Notes under the pieces: generated by a model
Seen by the model: only the letters and a program-made list of their open reading frames with translations
What the model was told of the DNA's origin: nothing
Databases searched by the model: none
Shown: positions 1,378-63,544 of the stretch, piece by piece
Layout of the letters: every line of letters starts with the position of its first letter
How positions within the stretch are numbered: position 1 is the first letter of the stretch
NCBI RefSeq assembly: GCF_023256325.1
Contig: NZ_JAGDXI010000040.1
Coordinates: 15,938-79,803 of the forward strand
Length of the DNA stretch: 63,866 nucleotides
Source of the DNA: Caldisphaera sp.
Lineage (GTDB): Archaea > Thermoproteota > Thermoprotei_A > Sulfolobales > Acidilobaceae
Direction: 5' to 3'
Position numbers and translations under genes: made by a program

Positions 1378-4023
1378 ATGGAAGACGAGGAAATACTAAA
1401 TCTGCTAAGACCATATGTTAGAGAATGGTTTACTAATAAATTCGGACAATTTACAGATCCTCAAAGATACGCTATTCCATATATCAAACAAGGTAAAAAT
1501 GTGTTGGTTTCAAGTCCTACAGGTACTGGAAAAACGTTATCAGTTTTTTTAGCAATTATTGATGATTTGTTTCAGATGAGTGAAAAAGGAGAACTACAAA
1601 ATCAAATATATGCTATCTACATAAGCCCCCTAAGGGCGTTAGACAATGATATGGAAAAAAACCTGTTAATTCCGTTAAAGGAGATTTATCAAATAGCAAG
1701 TCAAGAAAGTTATAATATAAGCGAAATAAATGTAGGTGTTAGGACAAGCGATACTCCATCAAACATAAAACAGAAAATGCTAAGATCGCCTCCTCATATA
1801 TTGATAACAACACCAGAATCATTAAGTATCAGCCTATCTGCTCCTAAATTTAAAGAAAGACTTTCTACCGCAAAATGGGTTATAGTTGATGAGATTCATG
1901 AAATAGCATCAAGCAAAAGGGGAGCACATCTTTCACTGAGTCTTGAAAGGTTAGAATATTTGGTCAAAAACAAAACTGGAAGAAGTATTCAAAGAATAGG
2001 ACTTTCAGCAACAATATCACCTTTAGAAGAAGTAGCAAAATATCTAGGAGGTTATGAAGATGGAAAGCCTAGAGAAGTAGAGATAGTAGATGCGAGGTTT
2101 TCCAAACCTTTTGATATAAGAGTTATAACTCCAAAAACAGATTTAATTCATGGAAGTGCTGAAGAAATTAATAATGAAATATACGAAACCCTAGCAAATC
2201 TTGTTAAGAATTCTAAAACGACTTTAATTTTCACTAATACTAGGAGTGCAACGGAAAGGGTTTCATATAAACTAAAGAAATTGCTAGCAAGCAGAAAAAT
2301 GTTAGATTTAGATGAAATTGAAGCCCATCATAGTAGCCTTTCCAGAGACGTGAGACTTAATGTAGAAGAAAAATTAAAGAAAGGTCAACTTAGAGTAGTT
2401 GTTTCTAGTACGAGCCTTGAATTGGGAATTGATATAGGTTATATTGATTTGGTTGTTTTACTTAGCAGTCCAAAGAGTGTAAGCAGGTTATTGCAAAGAA
2501 TAGGCAGAGCAGGACATCATATAACCCAAATTAGTAAAGGTAGGATTATAGTTGTTGATAGAGATGACTTAGTTGAGTGCACTGTTTTAGCAAAAAGTGC
2601 CTTAGATAGGCAAATTGATAATGTTAGAATTCCCATGAATCCTTTAGATGTTTTAGCTCAACAATTGGTAGGCATGTCCATAGATCAAAAATGGAATTTA
2701 GACGATGCATATGAATTAATAAAGAGGTCATATAATTATAACTCATTAACCATGGAGGAATTTATGTCAGTAATTAATTATTTATCAGGAAAGTATGGTT
2801 TAGAAAATGAAAAAGTATTTCCCAAGATATGGTATGATGAAAATGAAAACTTGTTTGGTAGGAAGAAAGGAGCAAGAATGATATATCAACTAAATACAGG
2901 CACTATACCTGATGAGGCAAAGGTAAGGGTTATGACTACAGATGGAAAGTATGTTGGGAATTTGGAAGAAGAGTTTGTTGAAATATTAGAAGAAGGAGAT
3001 ATTTTTATACTTGGAGGAAAAACATATAGGTTTCTAAAAAGTAAAGGTATGGAAATTAAGGTTGAAAGCGCCGAAGGAAAAAAGCCTACTGTTCCTGAGT
3101 GGTTTAGTGAAATGTTGCCATTAAGTTTTGATAGCGCTTTAAAGGTAGGAGAATTTAGGGAAAAAATAGGAAACTTTTTAGTTAATAAAAAAGTTAGTGA
3201 TGCTAAAAAAGTTTTGATAGAAAATTATTTATTAGAAGAGCATGCTGCCAATGAGGTAATCAGGTATATTTGGGAAGAACTTGCTTATGTAGGTATAGTT
3301 CCTGGAAATAAAAACATATTAATTGAATATTTTAGAGATGAAGATGGGTGGAATATAGTATTTCACATGCTTTTTGGTAGAAGGGCAAATGATGCATTAT
3401 CAAGAGCTTATGCGAGTGTATTATCAAATGAATTAGGATTGCCTGTTAAAATAACTGTAACAGATAATGGTTTCATGCTTTCATATCAGGCTATCGAAAA
3501 GACTAAAGAACCGGATTATAAAATGATAGAGGGATTAATAAAAGATGTAAATAAAAATAATTTCAGGGATATATTAGAAAATGCAATAAAGAGAACTGAA
3601 ATGATGAGAAGAAGGTTTAGACATGTTGCTCAAAGAAGCTTCATGATACTAAGAAGGTATAAGGGATGGGAAAGAAGTCCTGAAAGAATGCAACTCAATG
3701 CACAAAAGCTTCTTGAATTACTTTTAGAAGAGATGCCAGATTTGCCAATAATTAAGGAGACTTTGAGGGAAATCTTAGAAGATTATATGGACATAAAGGC
3801 AGCAACAAAAGTCTTAGAATGGATTGAAAATAATGATGTCAAAATTCATATAAAAGGTCCTTTACCATATCCATCACCATTTGCTCATAGTATTGTTGCT
3901 AAAGGATTTAGCGATGTTGTTTTAATGGAGGATAGAAGAAAGTTAATTTCATTGCTCCATGACAAAATAATGGAGCTAATAAGTTCATCAAATCTAGCAT
4001 CTAATATTGGTGGCGCCCAATAA
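1378..4023 (+). CDS. lhr: Lhr-family ATP-dependent helicase
   Basis: This is an 881-residue superfamily 2 helicase. Motif I is SSPTGTGKT at about residues 45-53, motif II is DEIH at 171-174, motif III SAT is at 210-212 and motif VI is QRIGRAGHH at 373-381. TTPES (144-148) is also present. A long C-terminal part (about 430-881) containing a winged-helix and Lhr-specific domain distinguishes it from Hel308 and RecQ. Lhr proteins are 3'-5' DNA translocases linked to repair; archaeal members may also act on RNA. The ATG at 1378 has a TGAGGA ribosome site eight bases upstream and a TTTTTATAAG promoter element near 1317. The gene stands alone and converges with the ABC exporter genes. Assignment to aLhr1 or aLhr2 was not attempted. 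Confidence 0.9.
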   Translation: MEDEEILNLLRPYVREWFTNKFGQFTDPQRYAIPYIKQGKNVLVSSPTGTGKTLSVFLAIIDDLFQMSEKGELQNQIYAIYISPLRALDNDMEKNLLIPLKEIYQIASQESYNISEINVGVRTSDTPSNIKQKMLRSPPHILITTPESLSISLSAPKFKERLSTAKWVIVDEIHEIASSKRGAHLSLSLERLEYLVKNKTGRSIQRIGLSATISPLEEVAKYLGGYEDGKPREVEIVDARFSKPFDIRVITPKTDLIHGSAEEINNEIYETLANLVKNSKTTLIFTNTRSATERVSYKLKKLLASRKMLDLDEIEAHHSSLSRDVRLNVEEKLKKGQLRVVVSSTSLELGIDIGYIDLVVLLSSPKSVSRLLQRIGRAGHHITQISKGRIIVVDRDDLVECTVLAKSALDRQIDNVRIPMNPLDVLAQQLVGMSIDQKWNLDDAYELIKRSYNYNSLTMEEFMSVINYLSGKYGLENEKVFPKIWYDENENLFGRKKGARMIYQLNTGTIPDEAKVRVMTTDGKYVGNLEEEFVEILEEGDIFILGGKTYRFLKSKGMEIKVESAEGKKPTVPEWFSEMLPLSFDSALKVGEFREKIGNFLVNKKVSDAKKVLIENYLLEEHAANEVIRYIWEELAYVGIVPGNKNILIEYFRDEDGWNIVFHMLFGRRANDALSRAYASVLSNELGLPVKITVTDNGFMLSYQAIEKTKEPDYKMIEGLIKDVNKNNFRDILENAIKRTEMMRRRFRHVAQRSFMILRRYKGWERSPERMQLNAQKLLELLLEEMPDLPIIKETLREILEDYMDIKAATKVLEWIENNDVKIHIKGPLPYPSPFAHSIVAKGFSDVVLMEDRRKLISLLHDKIMELISSSNLASNIGGAQ

Positions 4024-48492: not shown

Positions 48493-49161
48493 TTGAGTGT
48501 AGATCCACGTAGAACTTTACCAACAAAAATAAACCTAATACGACTGAAAAGAGATTATGCTATGATAAAAAGAGTTAGGAAAGTGATGGAAGAAAAAAGG
48601 GAGGTATTATTACACTACATTAGAAGTACTGCTGAAGATTACAATAAATATCAAAATGAAGTTTTTAAAAATACAGTTGATTTATTCACAACTTATTATA
48701 GAGGCATGGCCAATGAAGGAATATCAAAAGTGAATTTGTATGCATCATCAGTTCCTGAAAGTTTTGTTATAAAAACGGGTATGAGGGTTTTATATTCAGT
48801 TAGAACACCAACTTTTACACCTAAAATGGAAACCCTCGCCATTCCTTCTCTCCCTCCAGGAAGTTCACCTGATTTAACTATATCTTATATAATGTTAAAG
48901 AATTTGCTTCCATCGATCCTTAATTTAGCAATGTATGAAGAAACCATATTAAGACTAATAGATGAACTCAAGGAAACTCAAAGGCTAATAAATGCTTTAG
49001 ATTATGTTATATTGCCTAGTTACATTAAAACTATAAAGTATATAACAGCAGTATTGGATGAACGTATGAGAGAGGACTTTGTTAGATTAAAGATACTTAA
49101 AAGAAAACGCATTTTGCTAGAAGAAAAATCTAAGGTAGTTATGGAACAACAATACCGATAA
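48493..49161 (+). CDS. atpD: A/V-type ATP synthase subunit D
   Basis: The 222-residue protein is mostly two long antiparallel helices, starting with 'PTKINLIRLKRDYAMIKRVR' and ending 'LKILKRKRILLEE', the central-stalk rotor subunit D pattern. The start is TTG 48493 with GGGAG seven bases upstream. No other ATPase subunit gene is adjacent, so this subunit is separated from the main operon. Its end overlaps the convergent small membrane gene by 23 bases. Confidence 0.88.
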   Translation: MSVDPRRTLPTKINLIRLKRDYAMIKRVRKVMEEKREVLLHYIRSTAEDYNKYQNEVFKNTVDLFTTYYRGMANEGISKVNLYASSVPESFVIKTGMRVLYSVRTPTFTPKMETLAIPSLPPGSSPDLTISYIMLKNLLPSILNLAMYEETILRLIDELKETQRLINALDYVILPSYIKTIKYITAVLDERMREDFVRLKILKRKRILLEEKSKVVMEQQYR

Positions 49162-49390
49162 TTATTAACACTACTCCTAGTGCTAGTAGCAACTTTAAAA
49201 ACCCTGATGGTGTTAAATTCCATGTAGCTTTGAAAGCTTTAGCTAACATTATTATAACTCCTGCAATTACAAAAGTTAACAGTATTGCTAATCCAGCAAA
49301 AGCTATGTAATAGCTGACACCATTTACTGGTAATCCTGGTATATGAGATACGATTGAACTAAACACCTGTTGTAAAGCTTGAAGAGACAT
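49139..49390 (-). CDS. Small two-helix membrane protein
   Basis: The 83-residue protein has two hydrophobic segments ('YYIAFAGLAILLTFVIAGVIIM' region and 'LLLALGVVLIIIGIVV'). I considered the ATPase proteolipid subunit because of its neighbour, but the ion-binding Glu and Gly-rich helix pattern are missing. No family recognised. The 78-base gap to the large helicase has no feature. Confidence 0.55.
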   Translation of the reverse strand: MSLQALQQVFSSIVSHIPGLPVNGVSYYIAFAGLAILLTFVIAGVIIMLAKAFKATWNLTPSGFLKLLLALGVVLIIIGIVVP

Positions 49391-49468: not shown

Positions 49469-52400
49469 TTAATACTTGTAAAAATATGATGCTGCATATT
49501 TATATTTGTTTAGAAAATCCATTAATATTTCATTTCTATTATTCTTTTTAACTATAAAGACTAAATATCCATAGTCCATAAGTTTTTCCTCTTTTCCTTT
49601 GTTAATATAAGCCAAAATCTTTTTATAAGCTTGGTTAGAAAACTTTGGAGTCATGCCAGTTATTTTTCTATATTCTTTTTCAACTACATCTAGGGAATCA
49701 TAAGAATTAATAGCAATTGTTACATTTTTATCTCCAAAAGTTCTCTCCATATCAGATATTGTTTGAGCTATTCTTTCAGCACATCCCTTTAATGGTGTAC
49801 ATTCAATAACATTGCCTAAATCTTTAATTTTTTTGTAATCAGGTTTTTGTGAGTCTCTTGTTAAATATTCTTCAACTCTTTTTTTGATTAAAGGATCTAC
49901 GCTATTTGAACCGTTTCTAGATCTTATTGCAATAGCCTCTTCCATTATTTTTTGTATTTCTTCAATTTTTTCTATCTCTCTGTTAGAGAATCTTAATACT
50001 TCATTAAAAACTTCATGATCTAAAAATTTAGCCTGCCTCTTTTCTCCTGGTGATAAAGTTATTAATGCAATTAAGTTTTTATTATAATCAGATACAATTG
50101 ATTTTTCGCAGTAATCTTTAGATAGGCCTTTTTCCTTTCCCAAAGTAATTAATGCTTCGTATTTGCTACTGTTTAACTCGCATAAAGCCGTCATAACATC
50201 TATAGGTTTGAATTCATTGTTTATTTTTTCTAATCCTCCTCTGGCTAAACAATAACCTTTTTCTAATGGTACACACCATCCATAGATTAATTCTATTTCT
50301 CTTTTATTTGCTTCATAGGCTTTTAATGGTCCTCTTACTAAAGAATAATCTAATACTCCAGCATTTCTTAATACATCCAAATATCTTACTGCAGCCCACT
50401 CATCATTTGTGAGAACATCTAATGGTATAGGTATAATTTCAACCTTACTTGCCTTTTCAGCTAATAAGGATCTGTATGCTAGTATTTTATTATATACTTT
50501 AAGAACTCCACTTGCTCTAATTGCTGATTTTTCAGCTAATGATTTTCTTCTTATAATATCGTTTGGATTATAAAGTGTAATAATTCTAGCTTCTTTTCCA
50601 TCCCTGCCTGCCCTTCCTGATTCTTGATAAAAATCTTCTATGCTTTCACTAGGCATACTATGTATAATCCATCTTACATTCGGTATATCAATCCCCATAC
50701 CGAAGGCTTTTGTAACAACGGAAATTCTTGGTCCTTTCCCTGTTTTTGAAGATTCTGATAGAACTTTTTCAATTTCTCTTCTCTTTTTTTCATTTAATTT
50801 CCCATGATAAAATAAAATATCTAAATTTAGTTCATCAGATAGCCATTTTGATAAATTTTCAGCATTAAACCACCATGCATTTTTACTTTCTACATAAGGG
50901 GCAAAAATTAAACCAAGCCAAGGTTCATTAAAATTGTTTGCAAATTCAATTAAACTTTTTGCGTTGCTTGCTAAAATTTTAACTCTATCTTCACCCTTTT
51001 CCGGAACTGGTATTACATCAAACTTCAATTCATCTCTTATAGTGGGTGCAATTAGAACCTTTGGCTTACCATTATAGTCAATATTTAACGTTTCTTCAGT
51101 TTTTAATGAGATGTTATGTATTTCTGCTTCATTATGATCATATCCTAAACTTTCTAATATATCGTTTATTACATCTCTTGGTGCAGTTGCTGTTAATGCT
51201 ATAATTGGTGGATATCCATTGTTTCTAATTTTCTGCAACTTAGATGCCATGTATAAATAGCTTGGTCTAAAGCTGAATCCCCATTTAGAAAGGGTATGGG
51301 CTTCATCTAAAACTATTAAAGATGGATTGCCTTTTTCAAATATATCATCAATAATATCAGTTCCAAACCTTTCTGGAGTTATATATAAAAAGTCTAAGTA
51401 ACCAGCTTTTGTAGACTTTATAGCGTCTATTCTTTTCGATAAAGGTATACTCGAATCTATATACAGAGTCTTAAACCCCCTTGATTTAGCATTTTCTACC
51501 TGATCATGTATTAGGGCTTTTAATGGAGAAACAATTAGAGCTGATCCTCCAAAACCAGAGTCTTGCAGTATTTTTGAAATTATTTGAAATATAGCACTTT
51601 TTCCTGCACCAGTTGGTAAAATTACTATTTCTATTGTTGGATTGCCTTTTTCAAGCATTTTAAGGAAAGTTGATATACTAGTTTCCTGATAAGGTCTCGG
51701 CTTTGATTTCCAAAGTTTATTAAAGTAAGAGTTGACTTCCTCTAGAATATAATTATAGTTTATACCTTTTTTTACATTTATGTCTTGCTTAGGTTCAACG
51801 AGATCTACAAAATCCTTATTTTCATATAATGATAAAGCTCTTGATACTGTTTTGGCTCCATATTTTGAGGCAATCTCTAAAGTTCTATATGTATAAAAAT
51901 CGTAATACCCTTTTCCATCATAACTAACATTATTTACTATTCTTTCTGGAAACATTAATACAATATCATTTGCAAATGATGAAATCTCTGGGAACATTAA
52001 ATTTTTCTCCCACGAAATTACTCCAATCTTATTATCAATAAACCACATATTGGAGTCATTGATGCTGCCTAAATATATTCCGTCTATAGCATTGCTAATA
52101 ATTTTTGCTAGAGCATCATTTGGCGTAATAATAAGTTTTTTGCCTTCGTTACCAAATAATTTTAATGCAGATTCCGCAGCTTTGATTGGATCTTTAATTT
52201 CATTAGATGTAGATAACACCTTTATTTTAGTTTTTGAAGAGGCTAGTATATTTAATTTTTTTGAAATTTCAGGGTGCATAAATGTTTCTGTAACTATTTC
52301 CTTAGCTTTAATATTTGATTCATTATTTATTTGAATACCCCTAGGATCATTGTATTGATATTCTTTTTTACAAGGTATATTAGCACCTATATTTATCATC

Positions 52401-53674
52401 TCTTTTTCCCAAATTGTTAATCCATGCATAAATAGACAATCCTCATTATTTTCTACGCAATCCAATTTTACCTTATCTATTTTTTCCACACAGTCCAGAT
52501 CCCAAGGTTCTATTTGATATGATTCATTATTATTGAGTTCTTTGTTTTTTATTATATTACCTATTATTAAGTATGGTAATGATTTATCAAGTTCATTACC
52601 TCTTTTTATTGTTGCAGCCTTTGTTATTTCGCCATGTCTTACTCTTAAGGATGCAATTGAAACTCTTGCTGCGTAATCCCATGAATTACCAGTTAATGGC
52701 AACTGCTTTAAAATGTAAGGTTTCCAAATAGGATAAATAAGTCTTGGCTTATCAGTTACTATAAAATAATTATCTTCCAATTTTGGAATTTGAGTATCGG
52801 GAAGATATTCTGCATTTTTAACATCTTCTGGCATGTTTTTCCATTCTATACCTAACTGATCCATAATCTTTTTAGAAATAAGAGATATATAATATACTGC
52901 TTTAGCTGGAGTAGTTGATAAAGGTATTAACAAATGATAATATGCTGAAATTAATGACAGTTCAGAATCCGGAAATGCTATTGAATAAAGATTCTTGGCA
53001 TTGATTTTGTTATAACTGTCTAAACTTCTTCCGCAATCACCCCAATATATAACTTTTGAAGGTTTTGCAGACGATAATAATAGTTCAAGACCTTCCTTTG
53101 GATCTCCAATCCTCCACTCAGATCCTTTAGGAGGTATTTCTATTTCGTTATCGTTTATATATACATAAATTTTATTTTCAGAACAATACAGTGAAATTAA
53201 ATCAGCTTTGTTAGATAATATAGATTCCTTGCCCAGTTTTTTTGAAGCTTCGTTTTCCCATTTCGTTATTCCTAAAGCTAACAATGCATTTCTAGACTCA
53301 ATTAAGGCTGATGAAGATACACTACAACCTTTTGCTGACAACATTATTACATCTTCATAAAGGCCTAATTTGCTGAGATATATAGATAAAGTTTCTGAAT
53401 CCTTTGGACAATATTTGATGCTTCTTAAAATTCTACTGAGCCTTAGTATATTTATGTTATCTTTGTTATCTAATAAGAGCTGTGCATAATCAGAATAGTT
53501 ATTTTTTGTTGATTTTACATACCATTCTATTAAATTTAGGTATAAATTTTTTAATAAGTTGTTGGAAATTTTTCTTTTTTGTAACAATATCTTTTTAGAA
53601 TTATGATATAATATTATTGAAATTATTGTTAATATTATTAATATTGATGAGACCATGATTATTATATCTAGCAA
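49469..53674 (-). CDS. Large RecQ-like DEAH helicase with N-terminal membrane anchor
   Basis: This is a 1401-residue protein. Residues about 5-24 form a hydrophobic helix with charged residues behind it, so the protein is probably anchored with its body in the cytoplasm. Residues about 30-650 match no family I know; part of it (about 500-580) hints at a degenerate nucleotide-binding fold. The helicase core follows: motif I LPTGAGKS (686-693), motif Ia 'SPLKALIHDQV', DEAH (790-793), ALTATAP, and 'FGMGIDIPNVRWIIHSMPS' leading to QESGRAGRDG (1017-1026), a RecQ pattern. No obvious HRDC domain is present. The start ATG at 53674 is unsure by a few codons. Confidence 0.75.
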   Translation of the reverse strand: MLDIIIMVSSILIILTIISIILYHNSKKILLQKRKISNNLLKNLYLNLIEWYVKSTKNNYSDYAQLLLDNKDNINILRLSRILRSIKYCPKDSETLSIYLSKLGLYEDVIMLSAKGCSVSSSALIESRNALLALGITKWENEASKKLGKESILSNKADLISLYCSENKIYVYINDNEIEIPPKGSEWRIGDPKEGLELLLSSAKPSKVIYWGDCGRSLDSYNKINAKNLYSIAFPDSELSLISAYYHLLIPLSTTPAKAVYYISLISKKIMDQLGIEWKNMPEDVKNAEYLPDTQIPKLEDNYFIVTDKPRLIYPIWKPYILKQLPLTGNSWDYAARVSIASLRVRHGEITKAATIKRGNELDKSLPYLIIGNIIKNKELNNNESYQIEPWDLDCVEKIDKVKLDCVENNEDCLFMHGLTIWEKEMINIGANIPCKKEYQYNDPRGIQINNESNIKAKEIVTETFMHPEISKKLNILASSKTKIKVLSTSNEIKDPIKAAESALKLFGNEGKKLIITPNDALAKIISNAIDGIYLGSINDSNMWFIDNKIGVISWEKNLMFPEISSFANDIVLMFPERIVNNVSYDGKGYYDFYTYRTLEIASKYGAKTVSRALSLYENKDFVDLVEPKQDINVKKGINYNYILEEVNSYFNKLWKSKPRPYQETSISTFLKMLEKGNPTIEIVILPTGAGKSAIFQIISKILQDSGFGGSALIVSPLKALIHDQVENAKSRGFKTLYIDSSIPLSKRIDAIKSTKAGYLDFLYITPERFGTDIIDDIFEKGNPSLIVLDEAHTLSKWGFSFRPSYLYMASKLQKIRNNGYPPIIALTATAPRDVINDILESLGYDHNEAEIHNISLKTEETLNIDYNGKPKVLIAPTIRDELKFDVIPVPEKGEDRVKILASNAKSLIEFANNFNEPWLGLIFAPYVESKNAWWFNAENLSKWLSDELNLDILFYHGKLNEKKRREIEKVLSESSKTGKGPRISVVTKAFGMGIDIPNVRWIIHSMPSESIEDFYQESGRAGRDGKEARIITLYNPNDIIRRKSLAEKSAIRASGVLKVYNKILAYRSLLAEKASKVEIIPIPLDVLTNDEWAAVRYLDVLRNAGVLDYSLVRGPLKAYEANKREIELIYGWCVPLEKGYCLARGGLEKINNEFKPIDVMTALCELNSSKYEALITLGKEKGLSKDYCEKSIVSDYNKNLIALITLSPGEKRQAKFLDHEVFNEVLRFSNREIEKIEEIQKIMEEAIAIRSRNGSNSVDPLIKKRVEEYLTRDSQKPDYKKIKDLGNVIECTPLKGCAERIAQTISDMERTFGDKNVTIAINSYDSLDVVEKEYRKITGMTPKFSNQAYKKILAYINKGKEEKLMDYGYLVFIVKKNNRNEILMDFLNKYKYAASYFYKY

Positions 53675-53734: not shown

Positions 53735-54673
53735 TTAAAGGTAAACCACAACTGCCATGTTTCCTATAAGGAACTTGTAAAGCTTTCTAACAGTAGATTC
53801 CTTAATAGATACGGAATTTGCTATCTCCTTTTGACTAATATCATAACCGTTTAGCCTTGATATTAAATATACTGCAGCAGCAGCTATAGCTTCAGGCTTT
53901 TTACCATAAAGCGTTTTTCCTGACATTATAGAATTATTGACAAATCTTATCGATTCTTCTATTACTTGTTGATCTAAATTTAATGTCGAAACAATTCTAT
54001 TTATGTAAGTTACTACCCTTGTTAACATTCTGTCCTTATTATCAGCATAATTAACTTTTTGTGCCTCTATATATCTAAATTCTTGTAATATACCAAGGTC
54101 ATTCAGTCTCTTTTTCCCTTCCCAGATTTTGTTGTTATCTATACCCATAAATTCTTCTATTTCTGATTGAGATATATTTAAATTATAAACCTCTACAACT
54201 TTAGCAAGAGCTGCAGCAACTATAGCCTCTTTGTCTTTACCAACCGAATTTCCATTTTTTTCAACATATTTGTGTAGTATATAACCTAAAGTTTCTCTAG
54301 GATGTACGGATAAGTTAAAATAATCACTTACTTTGTTTGCTAAAACAAATAATGCTATCCTAGGCATTTCTTGTCTCGATGTTGCATGTTTCATGCTCAG
54401 TCTTCTATTATTTAATGATTTCAAATGATTTCTAACTTTCGGTGGAACAAAGGTTATAACGCCATCTCCTTTATCATGTCTTAAATAAGTTGTTCCCTGA
54501 GAAGCCCTCTCAACACCTTTCGTATTTTGTATACCTTTCTCATTATATGACCTCCATTCTGGTTTGTCTACCAATAAGTTTTCATCTATCACTATGCCAC
54601 ATCTTTGGCAAACAACTTTACCTTCTGGTGTTGTTACCAAATCTCTTGATCCACATACAGGACATCTTTCCAT
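53735..54673 (-). CDS. tfb: Transcription initiation factor B (TFB)
   Basis: This 312-residue TFIIB homologue has an N-terminal zinc ribbon (CPVCGSRDL, then CQRCGIVID, residues 4-28), a B-finger/reader region with 'KPEWRSYNEKG', and two cyclin repeats. The last repeat contains 'SQKEIANSVSIKESTVRKLY'. It recruits RNA polymerase to TBP-bound promoters. ATG 54673 follows GAGGTG; GTG 54682 overlaps that site. It lies directly after gar1, a common archaeal pairing. Confidence 0.95.
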   Translation of the reverse strand: MERCPVCGSRDLVTTPEGKVVCQRCGIVIDENLLVDKPEWRSYNEKGIQNTKGVERASQGTTYLRHDKGDGVITFVPPKVRNHLKSLNNRRLSMKHATSRQEMPRIALFVLANKVSDYFNLSVHPRETLGYILHKYVEKNGNSVGKDKEAIVAAALAKVVEVYNLNISQSEIEEFMGIDNNKIWEGKKRLNDLGILQEFRYIEAQKVNYADNKDRMLTRVVTYINRIVSTLNLDQQVIEESIRFVNNSIMSGKTLYGKKPEAIAAAAVYLISRLNGYDISQKEIANSVSIKESTVRKLYKFLIGNMAVVVYL

Positions 54674-54678
54674 AAGTT

Positions 54679-54957
54679 TCACCTCTTATGATACCGGTTC
54701 CAATATCTTTTTACTTCAACAAAAAACACATCATTCATATTAATTTTATCTTTGCTAAGCTTTACAACAGCGTATGGTTTGTTTACATTTCCTATTATAT
54801 CGCTTATTTTACCTATCAGATTAAACTTGCTATCATAAACGTTACTATTTATCTTCAATTTTAAACCTTTATTTTCTATGTTTACCAAGATATAGTTAAA
54901 TATTATATTTCTCGGCTTTCCTAGTAATTCGAGTTTTTTATTTGATGGAACCGGCAA
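54679..54957 (-). CDS. gar1: H/ACA RNP protein Gar1
   Basis: The 92-residue protein has a six-strand barrel pattern typical of Gar1: 'IGKISDIIGNVNKPYAVVKL' at about residues 48-67 is the conserved core. It binds Cbf5 in H/ACA ribonucleoproteins that guide pseudouridylation. The TTG start at 54957 has GGAGGT four bases upstream. It is transcribed ahead of tfb, with a TATA element GATTTATAAT near 54980. The rest of the interval to 55221 is AT-rich with no gene; it holds a 7-bp inverted repeat at 55138-55156. Confidence 0.85.
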   Translation of the reverse strand: MPVPSNKKLELLGKPRNIIFNYILVNIENKGLKLKINSNVYDSKFNLIGKISDIIGNVNKPYAVVKLSKDKINMNDVFFVEVKRYWNRYHKR

Positions 54958-60699: not shown

Positions 60700-61719
60700 A
60701 TGAGAGGACTGGGAACAGGAGTTGTAAAAAACGAATCTATAGACTATTCCTTGGCTTTAAATATACTTGCTTTAGCTTCTAAAGATGAATATTTGAGGAA
60801 TGCCATTCTTAACTTCGTTGTTAAGGAATATAAGGAAGAGTTGAGGAAGATGCTCGGCATAAGTTTGTCAAACGTAAAGATGGAGTGGAGTGGGGACTTT
60901 GAAAACTTCCTTTCTGAAAGGAAGAAGAGGAAGAAGGTGAAAAACATCGAGACGCTAAATTACTACAAAGGCCTTTTTGACAAACACTTGAAGGGCAAGG
61001 AACTTAGCGAAGAATTGGTTGAATATGTTGTAAACAACAAAAATAAATGGTTGAGAAATGTCTTCAGGCATTACATACAGTACCTTTATATGAAGAGGAA
61101 GATAAGCCCTGAAACATTTGGCTGGATAATGGAGGCGGTTCCTTCAAGAGGCTATAAGCTCAGCGTTAGGCCTTATCAAATAAATATTGAAGACGTTAAA
61201 AGAACCCTTGATTTTTTAAGGGAAAATCATGAAGTCTATTACATGATATACAGGATTATGCTTGAGTCAGGGATAAGGAAGGAGCACGCAATAATGCTTA
61301 TTGAGAACTGGAATCCAGACGAGGAAGTTGAAATCGATGAAATGGTAACAAAGAGGCTAGTAAAGTTTTCGGAATTTTCTAGATACTACATAGGCTTAAG
61401 GGAAGGGAATAAGCCATGCGATTGGGTATATTTTAGCAACAATACCTTAAAATTAATAGAAAATATCTCTCCTAGAAACATAAACAAAGACCAAGTAACA
61501 AGGTATGCAAAGAGAAACAACTTAATTTTACCTAAGTACATGAGGAAAGTATCGTGGAGGCTTCTTATAGAGGCAATGCCTAGGGAAGTTGCTAGATTTA
61601 TACAGTCAAGGTTTGGAGAGCTAAAAATAAGCGAGGCCAGATATGAAGACCTCTTATCTGAGGCAGATAAATACTATACAAGATATCTTGAATTATTAAA
61701 AAACAAGGTTGAGATTTAA
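60700..61719 (+). CDS. Archaeal tyrosine recombinase (integrase)
   Basis: The 339-residue protein matches crenarchaeal SSV/pNOB8-type integrases. The catalytic Arg is probably R193 in LESGIRKEHA, and 'KYMRKVSWRLL' supplies Lys/Arg. The C-terminal 'MPREVARFIQSR' and 'SEARYEDLLSEADKYY' hold the H/R-x-x-R and tyrosine region (Tyr315 or Tyr325/326). The gene is intact at both ends and not split, which is like pNOB8-type insertion. Codons look richer in G+C (AGG, AAG, GAG) than in neighbours, suggesting transfer. Its target is the adjacent tRNA-Arg. Confidence 0.85.
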   Translation: MRGLGTGVVKNESIDYSLALNILALASKDEYLRNAILNFVVKEYKEELRKMLGISLSNVKMEWSGDFENFLSERKKRKKVKNIETLNYYKGLFDKHLKGKELSEELVEYVVNNKNKWLRNVFRHYIQYLYMKRKISPETFGWIMEAVPSRGYKLSVRPYQINIEDVKRTLDFLRENHEVYYMIYRIMLESGIRKEHAIMLIENWNPDEEVEIDEMVTKRLVKFSEFSRYYIGLREGNKPCDWVYFSNNTLKLIENISPRNINKDQVTRYAKRNNLILPKYMRKVSWRLLIEAMPREVARFIQSRFGELKISEARYEDLLSEADKYYTRYLELLKNKVEI

Positions 61720-62068
61720 TCAGCCAAAATATTATAAATTATTCATTAAAGAATCTTAATATTTTACTTTTAAATATTCCTCATGCTGTTAAAGCAGACT
61801 CGCAGTCTCTTTAGGCTTCTCATTGAAAATAGAAATTGGTAATATATCTATATTATATCTAAAAACATATTTTTATTATTAAAGCAGCTTTAAGTAATTT
61901 GTATGAAATATTTGATTTATATCAATTTATGAGACAATAGAATTCAGAATAAAAATAGTAAAATTTTTATCTTTATTATTGGTTTATTAATGAAATTCTC
62001 AAAATTTCATTAAGTAATAATTTTATTACCAAAAAGAATAAATATAGCTGTTTATTAAAAACATATAA
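61720..62068. other. 349-bp non-coding interval inside the integrated element
   Basis: No gene is visible. It contains a GC-richer island (about 61784-61830) with AGACT-CGC-AGTCT (61796-61808), an 11-bp inverted repeat at 61987-62013, and AT-rich sequence. The promoter of the following GHKL ATPase gene (ATAAATATAG, about 62040) is at its right end. Confidence 0.5.
61987..62013. promoter_or_regulatory. 11-bp inverted repeat upstream of the GHKL ATPase gene
   Basis: TTAATGAAATT and AATTTCATTAA are perfect arms with a five-base spacer, lying about 25 bases upstream of the TATA-like element near 62040. Its position suits an operator or activator site controlling the downstream gene. Confidence 0.4.
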
Positions 62069-63544
62069 ATGGGATCAAATTTGCAATTAGCTGAACCTGC
62101 ATATTGTAATAATCCATCACCATCTTATGATGTTGTTTGCAATATAATGAACCAGTGGCTATCTCAATCATCGCAAAAAAATTTGGTAGGAAAAACTAAA
62201 AATGTGATTGAAGAAACTGCTAAGAATTCTGTTAGAATTATGTATAAAAATGTATTTGTAGACCCTGATCAATTCATATTGGAATTCCTTCAAAATGCTG
62301 AGGATGCTAGATTTGAGTTATGCAATAATAAGCAAGAGTTATGCAATGAAAATGGCTTATTCAGGATAAGGATTTTTAAAGATAAGATTATAATAGAAAA
62401 TAATGGTAAAAATCTAGATAGAGATGACATTATTAGCTTGTGTACGGTTAGTCCAAGAAAGAAACCATCAATTGGCTATAAAGGTTTTATAGGAATCGGA
62501 TGGAAGTCAGTTTTTAAAATATCGCATCATATAGATATAGCTTCTAAATCGCTAGATGGAAGTTACTTTGTTTCATTTCAATTTTCTAAAGATGCATGGA
62601 ATAATCCTTATTTGAGAGAAATAATAAATAAATTTAATCTTAAACCAGATGAGGTTGCTTGGGAACTTACTCCAATTCCTACATCAATGCCAGAGGATCT
62701 AGATAAAGGATGGACTAGATTTACTATATTCATAGAAGAGGAAACAGCTAAACAGCTCAGTAAAATTGTAAATGAAAAGCTAAGAGGTCATATGTTCCTA
62801 TTTCTTAAATACATAAATAGAATAGAAATTGAAGATAATATAAATGATGTGAAAAAAATTATAGAGTGGAATCATGAAAAAGAGCCTGAAAAACTCAATA
62901 ATATCAATATATACAAGTACAAGATATCTGAAAAAGCTCAACCTATTAATAGTAATAATTCAAATAAATTGGATGAAACCATTGGAAGATATATAATGTT
63001 TTCAAAAGAAATAGATGTGCCTGATTATATAAAGAACGATAATGAAACAAAAAATTCTAATAGGGAAGATGTTGAAAAAAGAGAAGTTTCAATTGCATTT
63101 GAGCTTGATACAAATAAAAATGAGATTAGGAAATTCAATAGTTCTCAATTGTTAGGTGTTTATTCTTTCATGCCATTAGATGAAGTTAAAAGCGGTCTAT
63201 ACTTTTTAATACAAGCGGATTTTATTATACAAGCAGGAAGGAAGACTATTAATTACAACGCTAAATGGAATAAGTGGCTCATGGAAGAAATAGCAGATCT
63301 ATTAAATGATTCTATTTCATATCTTAAAGAGAACTACACTAAGTCATATCCCACTATATTAGATTATGATGAAGATATAAGTCAAGAAATGAAATTACTT
63401 CTTAACGATACAGTATGGAAGACTATTAAGGAAATTTATGGCCCGCCATCAAAATTAAGTGTTCTTGATAACTATGAAATTAGGGATTCATTTGATGAAG
63501 TTTTCAAACCAGAAGATGAATTTATATATGAAAAAACTAATTAA
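62069..63544 (+). CDS. Sacsin/NO VEIN-like GHKL (HSP90-type) ATPase, probably frameshifted
   Basis: This 491-residue open frame has a GHKL ATP-binding fold in the sacsin/NOV style. The N box is LEFLQNAEDA at residues 71-80, NNGKNLD at 111-117 stands for the G1 box, and GYKGFIGIGWKSVFKI at 136-151 is the Gly-rich lid. Prokaryotic homologues occur in defence islands with large C-terminal effector parts. Here the frame stops shortly after A6 (63531-63536), while the +1 frame continues open to the window end, so the real protein may be longer. The ATG lies about 25 bases after a TATA element (leaderless). Confidence 0.75.
   Translation: MGSNLQLAEPAYCNNPSPSYDVVCNIMNQWLSQSSQKNLVGKTKNVIEETAKNSVRIMYKNVFVDPDQFILEFLQNAEDARFELCNNKQELCNENGLFRIRIFKDKIIIENNGKNLDRDDIISLCTVSPRKKPSIGYKGFIGIGWKSVFKISHHIDIASKSLDGSYFVSFQFSKDAWNNPYLREIINKFNLKPDEVAWELTPIPTSMPEDLDKGWTRFTIFIEEETAKQLSKIVNEKLRGHMFLFLKYINRIEIEDNINDVKKIIEWNHEKEPEKLNNINIYKYKISEKAQPINSNNSNKLDETIGRYIMFSKEIDVPDYIKNDNETKNSNREDVEKREVSIAFELDTNKNEIRKFNSSQLLGVYSFMPLDEVKSGLYFLIQADFIIQAGRKTINYNAKWNKWLMEEIADLLNDSISYLKENYTKSYPTILDYDEDISQEMKLLLNDTVWKTIKEIYGPPSKLSVLDNYEIRDSFDEVFKPEDEFIYEKTN

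Follow-up and report, generated by a model that had tools for sequence, protein, structure and literature searches.

RecQ helicases guard the genomes of bacteria and eukaryotes, and some accepted members of the family lack parts of the RQC or HRDC domains. In bacterial competence, a different kind of SF2 helicase, ComFA, is membrane-associated. The RecQ-like helicases described in archaea are Hel112 and Hel308/Hjm (PMC4200833, PMC2636818), which act as stand-ins in accounts of the best-studied crenarchaea. Ced has been reported in Sulfolobales and most Desulfurococcales; Acidilobales carry CedB/CedD, and the helicases that process DNA for the system have yet to be named (PMC11868833). The Ced pili of A. 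pernix are CedA1 pili (PMC9905601).

The stretch of Caldisphaera DNA analysed here (the window; 63,866 nucleotides) had been predicted from its letters to encode a membrane-anchored RecQ-like helicase with an N-terminal part of about 650 residues. An open reading frame of 1401 codons with a helicase core and an N-terminal helix was confirmed. It is uninterrupted, starts at TTG with the letters GGTG located 6 bases upstream (5′), and is the sole close copy in its 1.52-Mb genome (99% complete). The nearest named record comes from an Acidilobaceae MAG (75% identity), and the literature searched contained no paper on this helicase family and no experimental work on any member. The gene and the parts of its product are:

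49469-53674, minus strand: complete gene for a 1401-residue RecQ-family protein (uninterrupted frame; 44 of the 48 family genomes have a homologue)
53609-53665, minus strand: N-terminal transmembrane helix, residues 4-22, predicted N-out/C-in (hydropathy, flanking charge, AlphaFold2 helix 2-32)
53234-53551, minus strand: seven short helices, repeat-like, residues 42-147 (AlphaFold2 secondary structure)
52850-53206, minus strand: putative RNase H-like topology lacking conserved acidic residues, residues 157-275, beta-beta-beta-alpha-beta-alpha-beta-alpha (AlphaFold2 secondary structure; weak RuvX/RuvC fold matches)
52250-52777, minus strand: region with conserved TDxPR, QVEPWDL and DC-x6-C, residues 300-475 (alignment)
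51740-52249, minus strand: alternating strand/helix unit, putatively RecA-like and lacking a P-loop, residues 476-645 (AlphaFold2 secondary structure; alignment)
50483-51712, minus strand: RecQ helicase core, residues 655-1064 (motifs I, II, III and VI; aromatic-rich loop)
49472-50482, minus strand: C-terminal region, residues 1065-1401 (no RQC/HRDC match; C1292 and C1298 invariant)

The RecQ-type motifs proved intact, with QESGRAGRDG at residues 1017-1026, and the core does begin near residue 650, motif 0 (RPYQ) ending at 663. SF2 motifs I, II, III and VI all lie within one polypeptide. Among 29 homologues, invariant positions include T688, G689, G691 and K692 of Walker A, D790, E791 and H793 of the DEAH box, W798, G799, F802 and R803 of the RecQ-specific aromatic-rich loop after motif II, and Q1017, E1018, G1020, R1021, R1024 and D1025 of motif VI. 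Pfam placed DEAD at 661-835 and Helicase_C at 921-1026, together with ResIII, and matched nothing before residue 657 or after 1026. RecQ models gave the best NCBIfam matches, yet scored under their curated cut-offs (TIGR00614, 181 versus 219.8 bits; TIGR01389, 214 versus 640 bits); given these scores, we term the core divergent RecQ-type rather than canonical RecQ. The best PDB matches, by sequence and by structure, were RecQ, BLM, RECQL5 and RECQL4, and the top structural matches were RecQ cores (4tmu, E 1e-24; RECQL4 5lst, TM-score 0.51 over 698 columns). Motifs, aromatic-rich loop and database matches thus bear out the RecQ-like nature of the core.

With the RecQ family (bacterial RecQ, BLM, WRN and RECQL4), the window protein shares motifs 0-VI, the loop WGxxFRPxY and the best structural matches, but it differs in its 650-residue N-terminal part, its membrane anchor and its cysteine pattern. 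Neither RQC (zinc site and winged helix) nor HRDC was recognised by the Pfam scan after residue 1026, and the conserved cysteines 1165, 1189, 1292 and 1298 are spaced unlike the RQC zinc pattern. Since the C-terminal part has no recognisable RQC or HRDC domain, a RecQ mode of duplex separation is putative for this protein. Hel112/LhR and Hel308/Hjm share with it a proposed role in genome maintenance but belong to other SF2 families. Both types are apparently encoded elsewhere in the genome (window positions 1378-4023, judged by eye, and a Hel308 HTH match), the Hel308 HTH being detected in most genomes of the family, this one included. Because Hel308-type helicases coexist with it in most of these genomes, a role as a Hel308 replacement was rejected.

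The claimed transmembrane helix at the start of the protein was borne out by hydropathy, charge pattern and the start site of a homologue. Residues 4-22 (IIIMVSSILIILTIISIIL) have a mean Kyte-Doolittle value of 3.13 over 19 residues, versus at most 1.40 past residue 140. Net charge is -1 before the helix and +5 after it; in 15 family rows and a distant relative from another Thermoproteota family (G424), it ranges from -1 to +1 on the N-terminal side of the helix and from +2 to +6 on the C-terminal side. These charges fit a reverse (N-out/C-in) signal anchor, a pattern by which the helicase is predicted to stay in the cytoplasm. In homologue L064, the single possible start codon within the first 120 codons precedes the helix, so a wrongly placed start does not account for it. 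Nor is the helix part of a soluble fold, the case that the original prediction had named as refuting: wherever it occurs it is hydrophobic throughout, with positive charge behind it, and homologues without it keep the rest of the layout.

The helix was found in seven genera plus G424, among them Caldisphaera-like, Acidilobus-like and several other genera, and it is missing from Aeropyrum-like homologues. Homologues that begin downstream of the hydrophobic segment, named beforehand as a finding that would tell against the anchor, do occur: 14 of 30 tree rows lack the helix. In several genera the protein begins downstream of the helix with the remaining domain layout kept, and genus g5, counted among the 14, has a shortened protein in which most of the N-terminal part is missing. 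The anchor is therefore a lineage trait and not a feature of the universal protein. On a tree of the helicase part (30 rows, with weakly supported rooting and placement of G424), the transmembrane label changes at least four times, below every one of 500 shuffles. These changes, with the transmembrane helix at the start of the distant G424 protein, make an ancestral anchor followed by several losses plausible.

As had been claimed, the N-terminal part matches no recognised family (no Pfam, PDB or BFVD match). A Pfam scan of all N-terminal members found no family recurring in more than one, and Foldseek of the whole N-terminal model against PDB and BFVD gave no match with E < 0.001. The AlphaFold2 model itself, built from 29 sequences, is confident (pLDDT 92.6, pTM 0.90). 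By topology, the model may consist of helical repeats, an RNase H-like domain and a RecA-like unit without a P-loop. For residues 157-275 the topology fits an RNase H/DnaQ fold, with weak Foldseek matches to RuvX/RuvC (E > 0.001) but no confirmation at sequence level (hhalign 0.5%); the alignment shows no conserved acidic residues there, such as would mark a DEDD exonuclease. Weak helicase fold matches are in line with the RecA-like topology of residues 476-645, in which P576-E577 is invariant. A duplication of the RecA domain (476-645 versus 650-860) was rejected at a profile probability of only 5.5%, and the likeness is kept as one of topology. Eight cysteines (89, 117, 164, 214, 406, 413, 1165 and 1189) are almost always present in the family and are lost jointly in genus g4, a pattern suggestive of paired disulfides or a metal site.

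The distant relative G424 (L076:7936-12483, minus strand), from a MAG, is a protein of 1515 residues that joins a transmembrane helix, a DnaQ-like exonuclease and a RecQ helicase, with 35% identity in the helicase core. Its exonuclease stretch, as read from the sequence, keeps the DnaQ-like acidic motifs DIET, HN and HDPVEDA, and the gene is accessory within its genus. A binning error was rejected, as two neighbouring genes match other genomes of that genus at 83-95%. G424, with its DEDDh-like exonuclease, resembles the WRN-type exonuclease-RecQ fusions; the window protein has an RNase H-like topology at the equivalent position, but its catalytic acids are absent and no profile-level exonuclease homology was detected. 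That residues 148-295 are homologous to the exonuclease of G424 was rejected, a profile comparison (0.5%) giving no support. Tentatively, one could picture a membrane-anchored WRN-like exonuclease-RecQ ancestor, of which G424 keeps the helix and nuclease motifs. In Acidilobaceae, the nuclease domain would have become a structural cysteine-bridged module, with the anchored helicase kept as a core envelope-side DNA motor and the tether dropped several times. This history is possible, if doubtful.

All 25 good genomes of the GTDB family Acidilobaceae (f1) carry the helicase gene, each in exactly one copy. A profile of the N-terminal part matched 0 of 161 genomes from other families of the order, and phylum-wide Thermoproteota samples of 300 and 397 genomes gave no match apart from G424. 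When genome contigs were scanned with this one protein as query, the matches were close relatives and one to the core only. Matches from viruses, phages and plasmids were limited to the RecQ core; a viral contig (L088:4077-9017, plus strand) encodes a 1647-residue RecQ protein that apparently starts with an exonuclease-like domain. The helicase is thus a vertically inherited, single-copy core gene of the family. It is under purifying selection: for pairs inside the genus of the window, dN/dS was 0.025-0.04 in the core and 0.085-0.17 in the RNase H-like part. Anchor residues evolve faster than the rest (0.3-0.6), with hydrophobicity retained.

The locus is syntenic inside genera. Upstream of the helicase lie two further genes:

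53735-54682, minus strand: TFB (TFIIB-like) gene, divergent in sequence, 60 bp upstream of the helicase gene and on the same strand (Pfam TFIIB, 3.9e-19)
54679-54957, minus strand: Gar1-like gene overlapping the TFB gene (Pfam Gar1, 1.3e-8)

The TFB paralogue scored 103 bits, far under the curated TFIIB score of 384. It adjoins the helicase only in the genus of the window (g1) and in g10, where the Gar1-like gene is also near in most genomes with the pair. Elsewhere in the family the neighbours vary, often including a PadR-type regulator gene in convergent orientation and one for a DUF1286/YdjM-like membrane protein in divergent orientation. No neighbour indicates a pathway. A small gene for a two-helix membrane protein (49139-49390, minus strand) was considered as a partner and rejected, since it stays beside the ATP synthase D gene when the helicase is elsewhere (L041); it adjoins that gene in two genera, and its product matched no family and no solved structure, the CedA1 pilin among them. 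Further along the window, at 60700-63544 (plus strand), an SSV-type archaeal integrase gene (Pfam Phage_integr_3, 1.9e-21) is followed by one for a sacsin/TmtA-like ATP-binding protein (PADLOC 7.5e-55, first part only), a possible integrated element.

These results support a model in which the protein is probably a housekeeping RecQ-family DNA helicase/translocase of Acidilobaceae, with a membrane tether that is dispensable in part of the family. As the tether varies and the protein is universal, its core activity would be independent of the membrane. For substrate, direction and cellular role, as for the domain folds, we infer the following. Most likely, a cytoplasmic helicase moves along branched or gapped DNA and unwinds it during recombination and repair. 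For the N-terminal part, binding of DNA or of partners is the probable function; in its RNase H-like fold the nuclease residues would have been lost or never present, and its RecA-like unit would lack the ATPase motif. In anchored genera, the reverse signal-anchor helix would tie the helicase to the cytoplasmic side of the membrane. The tether would there concentrate the same activity at sites of contact between the envelope and chromosomal or incoming DNA, and so probably bias the site of its work.

Of the roles first proposed for a tethered helicase, general chromosome handling fits best, DNA uptake or exchange is possible, and envelope defence is disfavoured. A dedicated partner in Ced DNA exchange, processing single-stranded DNA as it leaves or enters the Ced channel in the way ComFA does in competence, is unlikely. 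An anchored DNA translocase would suit such a site, and in favour of this role are the CedB/CedD of Acidilobales and the want of a named processing helicase for Ced. The likeness to ComFA is that of an SF2 DNA translocase at the membrane, but ComFA is not a RecQ, is peripheral and belongs to a bacterial uptake system. The helicase shows neither gene linkage to CedA/CedB nor co-distribution with them: none of its copies had a recognisable Ced gene as neighbour, the Sulfolobales and Desulfurococcales groups reported with Ced were not found to have the helicase, and Aeropyrum has Ced with a copy that carries no tether. A dedicated Ced role is therefore not supported. It is rather improbable, too, that the protein is a chromosome tether or segregation motor, fixed in the membrane and clearing DNA that is catenated or undergoing recombination close to where the cell divides; vertical single-copy inheritance and the predicted cytoplasmic orientation would suit this, but no division (Cdv) or segregation gene was recognised as linked at helicase loci, and the tree calls for four or more changes of the anchor label.

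Anti-virus defence at the envelope, by a DpdF-like or other helicase, has very little to recommend it. PADLOC DpdF models do match the core (1.6e-68), a likeness shared with DpdF of the Dpd defence/DNA-modification system, and the G424 relative is accessory in its genus. The RecQ model, however, outscores the NCBIfam DpdF model (214 versus 135 bits, with a DpdF cut-off of 550), no Dpd genes were recognised either in the window or next to homologues, and a gene that is universal in the family, single-copy and syntenic in genera behaves unlike defence genes, which weakens the case. It is just as improbable that the mature protein is soluble, its hydrophobic N-terminus being a signal removed by cleavage or the product of a misplaced start call. 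Many homologues do lack the helix, and a TTG at codon 30 could begin a shorter window protein, but the charge pattern is opposite to that of a signal peptide, the sole early start of L064 precedes the helix, and seven genera as well as G424 carry such a helix.

The favoured reading, a housekeeping helicase with an optional tether, means that a RecQ-type core is kept throughout one crenarchaeal family, to which the cultured Caldisphaera, Acidilobus and Aeropyrum apparently belong. This core sits in an architecture not seen among solved structures, tethered in many members and free in others. Membrane fixation would put a genome-maintenance motor at the envelope, and the natural tethered and free versions make the effect of membrane attachment on a DNA motor directly testable.
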